Shown: positions 26,359 through 31,302 of the stretch, in pieces
Position numbering within the stretch: the first letter of the stretch is position 1
Layout: every line of letters begins with the position of its first letter
Source: Pseudomonas purpurea
GTDB taxonomy: Bacteria; Pseudomonadota; Gammaproteobacteria; Pseudomonadales; Pseudomonadaceae
Direction of reading: 5' to 3'
DNA length: 64,000 nucleotides
NCBI RefSeq assembly: GCF_039908635.1
Contig: NZ_CP150918.1
Span: 3,529,001-3,593,000, forward strand
Position numbers and translations under genes: made by a program
The notes under the pieces: model-generated
Database searches by the model: none
Told to the model about the DNA's origin: nothing
The model's input: the letters and a program-made list of their open reading frames with translations, nothing else

Positions 26359-27601
26359 CTAACCGCGCAATGGCCGGCAGGCTTCTTCCAGGGTGGCGCG
26401 CAACGCCTGGCACAGGCGATCCGGCTCGCCGCTCTGGCGAAAGTCGCTGACCTGGCGTTGCAGTTCGGCTAAGCAAGGGCCCTCGGCGGTCCTTGCCAGG
26501 CTCACGCGAGGATCGGGCTGGACGTAGCGCGGATCGCCTGGCGCCAGGTAGAGCCCGTTGAGGTTCTGGTAGTCGGCGTCGATCCAGGCGTACAGGTGAT
26601 GCTCGAAACCCTCGGCAAACCGATAGCGGCCGAAGTCCATGACCTGCAGTTGCAGCGGCGCGACGCTGGCCGTTCCGGCCAATTGTACATTGACCCCATC
26701 GATCAGCAGCGGCGCGCCCTGGTTGTCCGCCAGCAGGCGCTCCAGCGTCTCGGCCACCTGGTCGCTGACTCGCAGCGCTTCGCCGTCGCGTCGTACCTGT
26801 AGTTCCCCGGCCTCCCGGCAAACCTGAAAACGCACCGCGCCACAACTGCTGGCCGTCAGGCCATAACGCCGCAGCAACAGTTCGGGCCTGCATCAAGGCC
26901 GCAGCCAGTTCGACACCTTGCCAGTAGCGTTGCCACTGGCAGCGCGGGCGGGTGCAGGGCCGGCGCAACAGCAGCACCGCTGGTTCCGCCGGGCGCCCGT
27001 CATGCCACAAAGCGTCGAAGCCCAGATCGATCAGGGCATAGGCCGGCAATGGCGTGATCGCGCCGCCGGCGTGGGCCATGGCGGCGAATACCAGATGCTC
27101 CATCAGCACTTCGTGCACCGCTTCGGCCAGGGTCAGCAAGCCGTTGGAGTTAGGCAGCACCGGGGCTTCGTCCGGCGGCACGCCGATGCCCTTGATGTCG
27201 AACAGCACCTGTTCGCTGGCCGGCGAGCACAGCACCGCGGCCCGGCCATAACGAGGTGGGCGCCAGGCCGTTACCCGCCGGTTGTCGAGGGCAATTGGCG
27301 TGTTGATGCCATGTGTCGCTGCCTGGCTGGTAGAGATATAGGCGGCGTTGCGCAGCAGCCAGCGGTCGATGGCGGCCTGCTCCGAAACGCCCGGGATGGT
27401 TTCCCAGGGCCCGTCGAAGTCGGCGCGGATCGCTGGGTAGTTGGCGAGCAGCACCCGGGCATTGGCCACTCCGAGAACTTGTTCTTCGGCCAGGTCCTGG
27501 CCACTGCCGGCGTAGTCGGCCAGCTGTTGCACCCTCGGGCCAACGGCGAAGGGCAGGTCCAGGTCGTGCTGTTGTTGATCAAGAGAAGCGGGACTATTCA
27601 T
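26359..27601 (-). CDS. SelO-like pseudokinase-fold protein of the repeat-peptide cluster (one frameshift as given)
   Basis: About 413 residues when one base is removed from GGG at 26884-26886. As given, the frame breaks after GVELAAALMQA, and the second part (ELLLRRYGLTASSCGAVRFQ) lies in the next frame. Features recall the SelO adenylyltransferase fold. LFDIKGIG (K137) looks like the beta-3 lysine strand, and LTLAEAVHEVLMEHLV like the alpha-C Glu helix. GVNVQLAG (302-309), followed by LQVMDFGRYRF (322-324 DFG), resembles the SelO catalytic and metal-binding GVMNTDN...DYG region. If so it would transfer AMP or phosphate to a partner, perhaps the repeat peptide (inference). ATG 27601 overlaps the upstream stop as ATGA, so translation is coupled. 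Assignment to SelO is by motif only. Confidence 0.5.
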
Positions 27602-28596
27602 CGATAGCCTCCGGCCCAGGCGGCGAGGCGTCTGAGGTGGTCGAGGGCGGCGAGCGGGTCCAGCAGGATCCAGTTGCGACGCAGCTCTAGGCTGGGTTCC
27701 GGCCCCTGGGCCACCTCGCCATAGCTGCGGAGCATGGGCAGTTCCCGCAGCGCACCGGAGGCCGGGGCGCAGACGCCCAGGGCTTCGGCATGAGGGCTGT
27801 AGCGCAGGCGTTCGAACAGTTGCAGCTCTCGGGTGCGGATCGGGATGAATTGCCAGTTCGGCGCCACCGATCCTTCAGGGGCCCAGGGCTCTAGGCCGTA
27901 ATCCTGCAAACGGGCCAGCAGCCCAGGCATCTGCGGCCTGAGCCTCTGGCTGCGTGCCTGGGCCGTGGCAACGGCTGGCATCAGCGCCGGCAGGGCGTGG
28001 ATCGACAAGGCTGGGCTCGACGCCGGAGATGAGCGGGAACGCTGGCCCGGCGACCAGACGTCGATATCTCCATCCACCGGGATATCGCTGAACAGCGCGC
28101 CACCGCCGCCGATGTCCAGGGCTTTGCCGTGGCCCAGGGAGGTGACGACCCGCGAGGCGCCGGGGCGGCTGAGATCCCAGGCGCCGGCGCTGTCTTCGAT
28201 GATCGGCAGGCGCTCGCCCAGCAGCCGGCGCAGGGCCGGGATATCGCAGGGCAAACCGTATTGGTGGACCGCGATCACCGCGTCTAGGCTATTCACATGA
28301 GGCGCCAGGGCTTGGCTGCTGAGCAGCAATTCGGCGGCGTTTTCAATAATCACCGGTACCGCGCCGGCATTAAGGACGGCCGCTACCACCTGATGACAGG
28401 TGGCGGCCGGAACCGCGACCCGCCAGGTGGCGGTGACGCCCAGTTGGCGCAGCGCCAGTTCCAGCGCCGCGGTACCGGAACCGAGCAAGGCGCCGTGGCT
28501 ACGCCCATAGAACTGCGCGAGCCAGGACGAGCACGGCAGCCGATCGGCCTCCCGTGCCCGCCACTGGCCATCGACAGGACCCGGGACTACTTGCAC
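27598..28596 (-). CDS. DegT/DnrJ-like PLP-dependent aminotransferase-fold enzyme
   Basis: A 332-residue fold-type-I PLP enzyme, shorter than usual (about 370-400). Family marks are LLGSGTAALELALRQLG, VAVPAATCHQVVAAVLNAGA, VIAVHQYGLPCDIPALRRLL, IIEDSAGAWDL and SLGHGKALDIGGGGALFSD, with the likely PLP lysine in GHGK. The start is GTG 28596, lying inside the last codons of the repeat-peptide gene (10-nt overlap), so expression is coupled. Its stop overlaps the next start as ATGA. In this context it may modify amino-acid side chains of the repeat peptide or make a small-molecule amine (inference). Confidence 0.75.
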   Translation of the reverse strand: MQVVPGPVDGQWRAREADRLPCSSWLAQFYGRSHGALLGSGTAALELALRQLGVTATWRVAVPAATCHQVVAAVLNAGAVPVIIENAAELLLSSQALAPHVNSLDAVIAVHQYGLPCDIPALRRLLGERLPIIEDSAGAWDLSRPGASRVVTSLGHGKALDIGGGGALFSDIPVDGDIDVWSPGQRSRSSPASSPALSIHALPALMPAVATAQARSQRLRPQMPGLLARLQDYGLEPWAPEGSVAPNWQFIPIRTRELQLFERLRYSPHAEALGVCAPASGALRELPMLRSYGEVAQGPEPSLELRRNWILLDPLAALDHLRRLAAWAGGYR

Positions 28597-29096
28597 TTAT
28601 CCATCGCGCAAGCGGTCAGGGCTTCGACTTTGCACTTATCCATCGCACAAGCGGTCAGGGCTTCGACCTTGCACTTGTCCATCGCACAAGCGGTCAGGGC
28701 TTCGACCTTACACTTGTCCATCGCACAAGCGGTCAGGGCTTCGACCTTGCACTTGTCCATCGCACAAGCGGTCAGGGCTTCGACCTTGCACTTGTCCATC
28801 GCACAAGCGGTCAGAGCCTCGGCCCGGGGACCGCCGATGCGCCAGCTGGTGAACTTGCTTTCCGGCAGCGCGCCGCGCTTGACCACATCCAGGTGCAGGG
28901 TGCGGGCATTGTGGTCGTTGCATTCAAGGAGGATCTCGTCCTCGGCGACCGCGAAGTGATCGTGCAGCAGGCAGAGTCCGAAGCGATCCTGGTTGCCATA
29001 GCGCTCCAGTAGCTCATGCAGGTCATTGATGAATTGCGCATCAGACGCCCCCAGTGGCATGGCTTCGTCAAAGGAGGGATTGGTGTGTCCGTTCAT
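28587..29096 (-). CDS. Protein with six tandem 13-residue Cys-containing C-terminal repeats (candidate multi-core peptide precursor)
   Basis: A 169-residue protein. Residues 1-91 form a compact acidic domain (INDLHELLERYGNQDRFGLC, HDHFAVAEDEILLE, TSWRIGG). Residues 92-169 are six back-to-back copies of (A/V)EALTACAMDKCK ending exactly at the stop. Each copy has a Cys-x4-Cys pair, Thr, Asp and Lys. GGAG lies 9 nt before ATG 29096. The PLP-enzyme gene starts inside its last codons. The layout (folded or leader domain, then repeated cores, then enzymes) is what multi-core RiPP precursors look like. A metal-binding or structural repeat protein is the alternative. No signal peptide. I do not recognise the family. 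Confidence 0.75.
   Translation of the reverse strand: MNGHTNPSFDEAMPLGASDAQFINDLHELLERYGNQDRFGLCLLHDHFAVAEDEILLECNDHNARTLHLDVVKRGALPESKFTSWRIGGPRAEALTACAMDKCKVEALTACAMDKCKVEALTACAMDKCKVEALTACAMDKCKVEALTACAMDKCKVEALTACAMDKCK
28590..28823 (-). repeat. Six tandem 39-bp repeats within the candidate precursor gene
   Basis: Six direct repeats of exactly 39 bp, nearly identical to each other. They encode the 13-residue units of the candidate precursor. Because 39 is a multiple of three, spurious repeat-bearing ORFs open in other frames and on the other strand. Near-identity at synonymous positions points to recent expansion. There are no spacers, so this is not a CRISPR array. Confidence 0.95.
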
Positions 29097-29163: not shown

Positions 29164-29746
29164 TCATGCACCTCCTTGTTCCGGTGGAGCTTTGCTTGCG
29201 GATATCCAAAGGGGCTCGATGCTCAGCAGCGGTGGCTGGTTGTCCGGGGCCACCGCGCCCAGCGCCAGTTGCCCTGGACCGAGAGGATCTCGCTTTCGAA
29301 CTGGGTCAAGTTGAGGCTGGGGGTGCTGCTCATGCCCGCGTAAGGCACCAGCGGAAAGCCGGTCATGCCAGCGTTGCCCATGGACACCGGGGCATTGACC
29401 CGGGCTTCGCTGCTGTCCACCACCAGCACGAACACCACCGGGCCGACCTGGCGGCTGACGTTCATCCCGGGCAGCACACCAGTCCCGGCACACAAAATTC
29501 GGTGACGGCTGAAGGGGCAGAGGAAGAGGGCGAAAGGTCCACGCAACCCGCGGGCGGCGGGGTGGATTCGCTAGTAGTGGAAAAGGCCTGGTTGTGCCAG
29601 CCCGACGCAGCGCTTGGCACGCGGCTGCCGGTGGTCATCAGCCACACTGCAGTCGCCAGGGGCGCGCCGAGGGTTGCCCAGAGAATCCGGGTGTAAAGCA
29701 TCCGCTGCCTAGCCACGTGTGGGGATCCTTTTCGTGTGTTGGGCAT
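29164..29746 (-). pseudogene. Frameshifted membrane-anchored hypothetical gene upstream of the repeat-peptide gene
   Basis: Three frames give one plausible protein. An N-terminal membrane segment (YTRILWATLGAPLATAVWLM) and a Pro/Ser-rich linker reach about 29500. A second frame then reads LPGMNVSRQVGPVVFVLVVD, SSEARVNAPVSMGNAGM and LNLTQFESEILSVQG. A third reads LGAVAPDNQPPLLSIEPLWI before a stop at 29164. Two frame changes are needed, neither at a GGCC site. It would be the first gene of the cluster on this strand and could encode an anchor or accessory protein. I do not recognise it; decay is the simplest reading. Confidence 0.4.
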
Positions 29747-30357: not shown

Positions 30358-30840
30358 CTAGGCTCTGTACGAAAAATAATGTCGCAAACACCGCATGGCA
30401 CAAGCCAGTGAGACCATCGCTGCATAACTTTTCGCGAGTTTGTCGAAGCGCGTAACGATGCGGCGGTTTTCCTTCAGCCACCCGAACATGCGCTCAATGA
30501 TGTTGCGCTGCCGGTACTTGGGGCGATCAAACAGTCTTGGCAAGCCCGGCTTCGGCTTGCGCTTCATGCTGCGCAGCGGGATTACCGGCTGCATCCGATA
30601 ACGATCGCAGTAGCGGCGCAGGGCTTCGGCGTCATAGCCCTTGTCGGCCAGCAACCAGCGGCAGCGCTTGCGGGGACGACCGCGCAGGCCCTGGAATGTA
30701 AGCCTCATCCAGCAACGGTTGGGCATAAGCGATATCACTTGCTTGCCCACCTGATAATAGAAAGCGCAGCGGCACGCCATTGGCATCACACAGCATGTGA
30801 ATCTTGGTCGTCAGGCCGCCCCGACTGCGCCCGAGTGCAT
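30358..30840 (-). CDS. IS5/IS427 transposase, second frame (orfB part)
   Basis: C-terminal half of the DDE transposase. One frame reads HALGRSRGGLTTKIHMLCDA and FLLSGGQASDIAYAQPLLDE, then AYIPG. It must shift once at CCAGGGCCTG (30689-30694 on the plus strand) to continue LRGRPRKRCRWLLADKGYDA and NIIERMFGWLKENRRIVTRF. One extra G accounts for the break. The stop lies just outside the left inverted repeat. The conserved D (LLADKGYD) and E (RNIIERMFGWLKENRR) of the catalytic triad are present. Confidence 0.8.
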
Positions 30841-31302
30841 GGTCTTGCGGTTCTTCAGGCCCCCTTTTTTCCCGGCGCCTGATGAGGCTCGGGTTGCACG
30901 AACAGCAGTGGAGTCGATCATCCAGGTTTCCAGATCGATCAAGCCTTGCTCGTTCAATCGGATGTGAAGTCGCTTGAGCATCTGGTCGAAAGACCCGCGA
31001 TTACGCCAGTCGCGAAAGCGTTGATACACCGTTGACCACGGGCCGAAGCGCTCGGGCATGTCACGCCAGGCGGCTCCTGAGCAGAACACCCATAGCACGC
31101 CGTTGAGCATCAGCCGATCATCTGCCCGTGGGCGTCCGTTTCGGCGGGGTTCACTGAAGATGTCTGCAACCAGATCCCAGGCTGCGTCGGGGAGTTCGTA
31201 CCGTTTGGCCATCGTGGGCTCCTGCCTTTGATGGACGCGGACTCTACTGATTCCTGACGTTTGTGGGAGTCAAATGAGTTTCGGCGGATTTCGTACAGAG
31301 CC
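30361..31302 (-). mobile_element. IS5-family (IS427-group) insertion sequence, 942 bp
   Basis: Terminal inverted repeats GGCTCTGTACGAAA and TTTCGTACAGAGCC bound the element, flanked by TA on each side (CCTA before, TAGT after). It carries two overlapping transposase frames on the minus strand, as usual for this group. Inserted at the end of an older IS5 remnant. Its ends match those of the small element at 33991-34132. Confidence 0.9.
30811..31212 (-). CDS. IS5/IS427 transposase, first frame (orfA)
   Basis: A 133-residue N-terminal half with the DUF4096-type domain (MAKRYELPDAAWDLVADIFS, NGVLWVFCSGAAWRDMPERF, PWSTVYQRFRDW) and the first catalytic Asp region (WMIDSTAVRATRASSGAGKK). The slippery A6G5 run near 30866-30876 is where a -1 shift gives the continuing frame (GPEEPQDHALGRSRGG), as is common for this IS group. 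Confidence 0.88.
   Translation of the reverse strand: MAKRYELPDAAWDLVADIFSEPRRNGRPRADDRLMLNGVLWVFCSGAAWRDMPERFGPWSTVYQRFRDWRNRGSFDQMLKRLHIRLNEQGLIDLETWMIDSTAVRATRASSGAGKKGGLKNRKTMHSGAVGAA

Follow-up and report, generated by a model that had tools for sequence, protein, structure and literature searches.

Gene organization and the repeat tail of gene A

Within the window, the 64,000-nucleotide stretch of Pseudomonas purpurea DNA analyzed here, three coding regions (A, B and C) follow one another on the minus strand. The initial annotation described three overlapping genes, and this holds for A, for B and for both overlaps (10 nt between A and B at 28587-28596, 4 nt between B and C at 27598-27601), but not for C as a plain gene, since it is spread over two reading frames. 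Gene A (28587-29096, minus strand) is an open frame of 169 aa. Residues 1-91 (28824..29096, minus strand) form a leader-like N-terminal domain of an unnamed family, defined from an alignment of 27 A-type proteins. Residues 92-169 (28590..28823, minus strand) consist of six units of 13 residues, (A/V)EALTACAMDKCK; translation and comparison of the units at the DNA level confirmed the proposed exact-length repeats, with one copy of AEALTACAMDKCK and five of VEALTACAMDKCK running consecutively up to the stop codon. The DNA of the six units differs at seven sites, six of them synonymous and one nonsynonymous (the A/V position), a synonymous excess with a binomial p of 5e-4 against all single changes and of 0.007 against transitions only. 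Because six of the seven differences are synonymous, conservation of the repeats exceeds chance.

Profile searches gave the N-terminal domain no credible Pfam family; assignment to Lysostaphin_N was rejected, as only one of the 27 A-type proteins matched it, with 23.7 bits for A against a cut-off of 60. The structure model of A is poor (pLDDT 52.2) with the tail modelled as disordered, and a fold search with this model returned nothing at E <= 0.001. Searches of PDB sequences with A and C as queries gave nothing informative.

Gene B (27598-28596, minus strand, 332 aa) is a DegT/DnrJ/EryC1/StrS-type PLP enzyme, as its motifs had indicated: it matches PF01041 at 67.4 bits (cut-off 19.8), the match covering residues 26-167 only. 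The nearest solved sequence is AHBA synthase (E 3.4e-12), and likeness to this enzyme and to sugar aminotransferases lies mainly in the first half of the protein. The Lys of 'HGKALDIGGGG' in B aligns with that of 'NGKLMTAGEGG' in AHBA synthase, which we take to be the PLP lysine.

A split gene C with a predicted SelO-like fold

The reading frame of gene C changes near position 26,880. The 5' part (26876..27601, minus strand), in the first frame, aligns by tblastn with residues 1-236 of an intact protein from another Pseudomonas genome (G061) and carries the Lys, Glu and Arg motifs belonging to the SelO-like fold predicted for C, while the 3' part (26359..26883, minus strand), in the second frame, aligns with residues 234-407 and carries the GVN and DFG motifs. 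The lysine-strand, GVN and DFG motifs listed in the initial annotation are thus all present. In G061 the orthologue is a single frame of 409 aa, intact Pseudomonas copies are 74-96% identical to the G061 protein, and a whole gene C protein from P. chlororaphis (P0125) shares 91-94% identity with both window parts.

Upstream of A, P. protegens-type genomes encode a 3474-aa LysM-domain protein (34.3 bits), a protein with likeness to the endonuclease/exonuclease/phosphatase family at 23.9 bits, just below the cut-off of 24.5, and further genes without an assignment. In the window only pieces of this region are found by tblastn and DNA comparison: the last 37 residues of the giant LysM protein (29167..29277, minus strand) and what is left of a different upstream gene in the operon (29280..29375, minus strand). 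A further stretch (29359..29723, minus strand) aligns collinearly by blastn with the beginning of this operon in P. protegens-type genomes (locus L099). Relative to P. protegens FD6, about 0.4, 2 and 13.8 kb are missing between successive collinear stretches of the window, whose genome is a single contig of 5.93 Mb. The initial annotation had missed both the change of frame in C and the loss of the upstream genes. The window copy is probably a decaying locus, and the pathway is likely inactive in this genome. Near the deleted upstream part, two adjacent minus-strand open reading frames (30358-31212) are pieces of an IS4/5-type transposase, with DUF4096 and DDE matches. Shortened gene C proteins also occur in P. 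baetica (P0138, 338 aa) and P. palleroniana (P0182, 257 aa), which suggests, from the lengths of the predicted proteins, that the A/C locus may have decayed repeatedly.

The protein family of gene C has no name; its members share fixed Lys, Arg, Arg, Asn and Asp residues. We predict from modelling that C has a SelO/YdiU-like kinase fold with counterparts of the SelO ATP-site residues. To this extent the SelO likeness first noticed from its motifs is borne out by the predicted structure. Candidate counterparts of the SelO ATP-site Lys, Glu, Arg, Arg, Asn and Asp are conserved in order, with only the Lys, the first Arg and the DFG motif in register in the profile alignment, and the two Arg are spaced by 5 rather than the 7 of SelO. 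TM-scores of the C model against its Foldseek fold matches are only 0.26-0.32, and hhalign comparison with SelO profiles gave E-values of 0.04 and 0.05 at a probability of about 1%. Gene C differs from SelO/YdiU in this weak profile likeness, in the lack of any match to PF02696 among 67 family members, in having one linked, repeated partner protein, and in that a true SelO is encoded separately in the same genome. It differs from the NIS siderophore synthetases (IucA/IucC, AcsD, DesD and SbnC) in that none of the 67 members matches that Pfam family, in its length (409 aa, versus 543-593 in the solved NIS chains listed) and in its proposed substrate, a protein tail. SidJ is absent among the fold matches listed for C, an absence that carries no weight.

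Co-occurrence of gene C with the repeat unit

A scan of genome contigs for relatives of A identified 42 loci, five of which carry a C-x2-D-K/H-C-K unit (P. chlororaphis PCL1601, P. protegens FD6, Aquimarina muelleri, Lentzea jiangxiensis and a Pseudolabrys MAG) and 37 another tail. The latter are nearly all from Streptomyces and Kitasatospora, and their tails usually end in C-x5/6-CP. Comparison of the locus DNA placed gene C next to A at all five unit loci and at none of the 37 others. Whole-genome searches agreed, with C found in 5/5 unit genomes and 0/36 other-tail genomes; the empty result is taken as meaningful because the same query matched every unit genome. Overall, gene C accompanies A in nine of nine genomes with the unit and in none of 44 with other tails, a split that spans four lineages only, so that its independence is overstated. 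The nine are the five genomes above, the window genome (with C split) and three further genomes (G061, G384 and G428); the 44 are these 36 other-tail genomes plus six from Pseudomonas and two others. FD6, present as both L035 and G399, was counted once; L062, a 20-kb locus without gene C, was left out of the genome count; and a weak match in G310 (25.8 bits) was not counted as gene C.

The N-terminal domain of A is present in 11 of 398 Pseudomonas genomes, five with the unit and six with other tails. Of these six, four share one protein with a Cys/His-rich end, a fifth has a similar tail, and the sixth is a longer protein with two domain-like stretches. Gene C is rare, with six matches among the 398, including the doubtful one at 25.8 bits, and two among 349 genomes across the phylum, the second a distant relative (G632). 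The A and C searches are taken to have covered the same genome sets (398 Pseudomonas; 349 phylum), from equal totals and shared identifiers. For three of 12 other database A proteins, the length of the longest contig (24147, 14423 and 2998) is exactly that recorded for a gene C protein. No relatives of A or C were found in the viral contigs searched, and a plasmid search by DNA gave one 34-base match only.

The number of units varies while C is conserved. Among Pseudomonas proteins, A carries six units in the window and in G061, five in FD6 and G384, eight in G428 and nine in PCL1601; elsewhere there are five in Aquimarina, four in Pseudolabrys and one in Lentzea. The layout is the same in all nine genomes, with one to nine copies at the C-terminus behind the N-terminal domain. 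The 12 database A proteins range from zero (P0011, a homologue with no clear unit) to eight. Across 19 distinct unit types, both Cys, the Asp and the last Lys are invariant, a Lys precedes the second Cys in 17, and Thr is present in 16, with Gln or Met in its place in some units. The Lentzea unit has Gln at this position and is accompanied by gene C; AMPylation of Thr was thus rejected as the general reaction.

The initial annotation proposed that the repeats are the substrate of both enzymes. Pairing of the repeats with the SelO-like enzyme is upheld by these counts, and the trio is not, as gene B is present at 6/6 Pseudomonas loci and 0/3 others (Aquimarina, Lentzea and Pseudolabrys; flanking DNA compared), which rules out A-B-C as the minimal unit. 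Since it is confined to Pseudomonas among the loci compared, B is likely an accessory, add-on enzyme, judging from gene content. Homologues of A do occur without C, and all of these are N-terminal-domain proteins lacking the unit, which sharpens the pairing of unit and enzyme. Comparative sequence data thus support the view that the repeats and the SelO-like enzyme belong together.

At the other-tail loci the commonest neighbour is a DUF6185-type membrane protein (34 of 44 clustered; 551 bits for the one representative scanned), a name also given to that neighbour in a Streptomyces plasmid record. In Streptomyces, Kitasatospora and relatives (L037-L043, L045 and L047-L072), the N-terminal domain, the C-x5/6-CP tail and this partner occur together, possibly as a second precursor-partner pair. 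We found no paper on DUF6185 in the open-licence PMC papers searched. N-terminal-domain proteins with short Cys/His-rich tails also occur on plasmids and in other Proteobacteria, including P. juntendi, Sinorhizobium meliloti and Thiodictyon (L127, L128, L129, L138-L141 and L146), with no C in the DNA examined. Distant relatives of C lie apart from any recognizable A on a Rhizobium phaseoli plasmid (L130:5950-7194) and in G632 (L116); the former has no Pfam match and adjoins a DUF2252 protein.

A candidate AMP-based modification of the repeat units

We propose that C, a predicted SelO-fold enzyme, modifies the units of A by AMP chemistry, an overall explanation to which we assign a probability of roughly 0.5. 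That C acts on the units at all is very probable, whereas the use of AMP chemistry is about evenly balanced. NIS synthetases use AMP chemistry, and such chemistry is proposed for C because both of its nearest fold groups, SelO and these synthetases, rely on it. The N-terminal domain of A would guide the tail to C, which would place AMP on the carboxylate of the invariant Asp in a unit, giving an acyl-adenylate by analogy with carboxylate activation in NIS synthetases. A nearby Lys or Cys would then attack this intermediate, leaving a cross-link in each unit. Asp is preferred as the target since no hydroxyl residue is invariant, with Gln or Met standing in for Thr in some units; action on Asp with a resulting cross-link is nevertheless a tentative proposal. 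Another option is a stable AMP mark on the unit, as SelO leaves. Several observations weigh against the proposal: the faint sequence likeness of C to SelO and its low TM-scores, the small number of lineages, a homologue of A that lacks a clear unit (P0011), distant C relatives with no A next to them, no peptidase or ABC exporter found among the ten neighbours scanned, and the broken copy in the window.

The Cys pair in every unit favours a different reading, in which A is an intracellular thiol- or metal-binding protein that C AMPylates reversibly as a redox switch, with no peptide product. SelO, according to an excerpt of PMC8097203, AMPylates glutaredoxin and is tied to redox control. Moreover, neither a peptidase nor an ABC exporter was found among ten A/C neighbours scanned at three loci (Aquimarina, G061 and Lentzea), although these could be encoded elsewhere; a LysE-type translocator lies downstream of the A/C locus in G061. 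The lack of an invariant hydroxyl residue argues against such a switch, as does a range of one to nine units, unusual for a folded switch, and the tail is modelled as disordered, though in a poor model. We regard this reading as doubtful. A further reading, in which a metal-binding tail simply grew by ordinary slippage and C has some other target, is quite unlikely: near-identical tandem DNA units expand easily and Cys-x4-Cys can bind metal, but six of seven unit differences are synonymous, and C accompanies the unit across four distant lineages, with no copy found in genomes whose A has another tail.

The upstream giant raises the further prospect that A and C do not form a system of their own but serve it, for instance in its maturation or protection. 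The giant (about 3300-3500 residues at L032:3684-14108 and L044:19-9924, with LysM as its sole Pfam match) is conserved from Pseudomonas to Lentzea, lying directly 5' of A in both (29% over 2825 columns for the Lentzea homologue), and a PDB sequence search with it found nothing informative beyond LysM. A partial match in the Pseudolabrys genome also favours this prospect, but it lies on a different contig from A and C, and the giant was not found in the Aquimarina genome, though A and C are both present. A role in service of the giant is accordingly improbable.

The modification of A by C would resemble graspetides and other multi-core RiPPs, in which an N-terminal domain and variable C-terminal repeats are found beside an ATP-using enzyme; neither A, B nor C has an ATP-grasp match, however, and C has the predicted SelO-like fold. 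Microcin C7 is a ribosomal peptide carrying AMP, and its enzyme MccB is of the E1/ThiF type and acts at the C-terminus; the E1/ThiF fold is not among the fold matches listed for C. We found no description of the A/C pair in the open-access PMC literature, within its partial coverage. It is conceivable, if speculative, that A and C represent a new class of ribosomal peptide: the SelO-fold enzyme would adenylate the invariant Asp in every C-x2-D-K/H-C-K unit, and a Lys or Cys would close a cross-link, producing a chain of one to nine small rings. The N-terminal domain would then be a general leader, found elsewhere with other Cys-bearing tails and with other enzymes or membrane proteins (DUF6185 in Streptomyces).

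Known SelO-type enzymes are conserved and AMPylate ordinary cellular proteins. The unnamed SelO-fold family of C instead has one obvious, repeated and genetically linked candidate substrate in A. If the proposal is correct, the enzymes acting on ribosomal peptides would include one more fold, and C would offer a test of whether SelO-like and NIS-like AMP chemistry come together within a single family.
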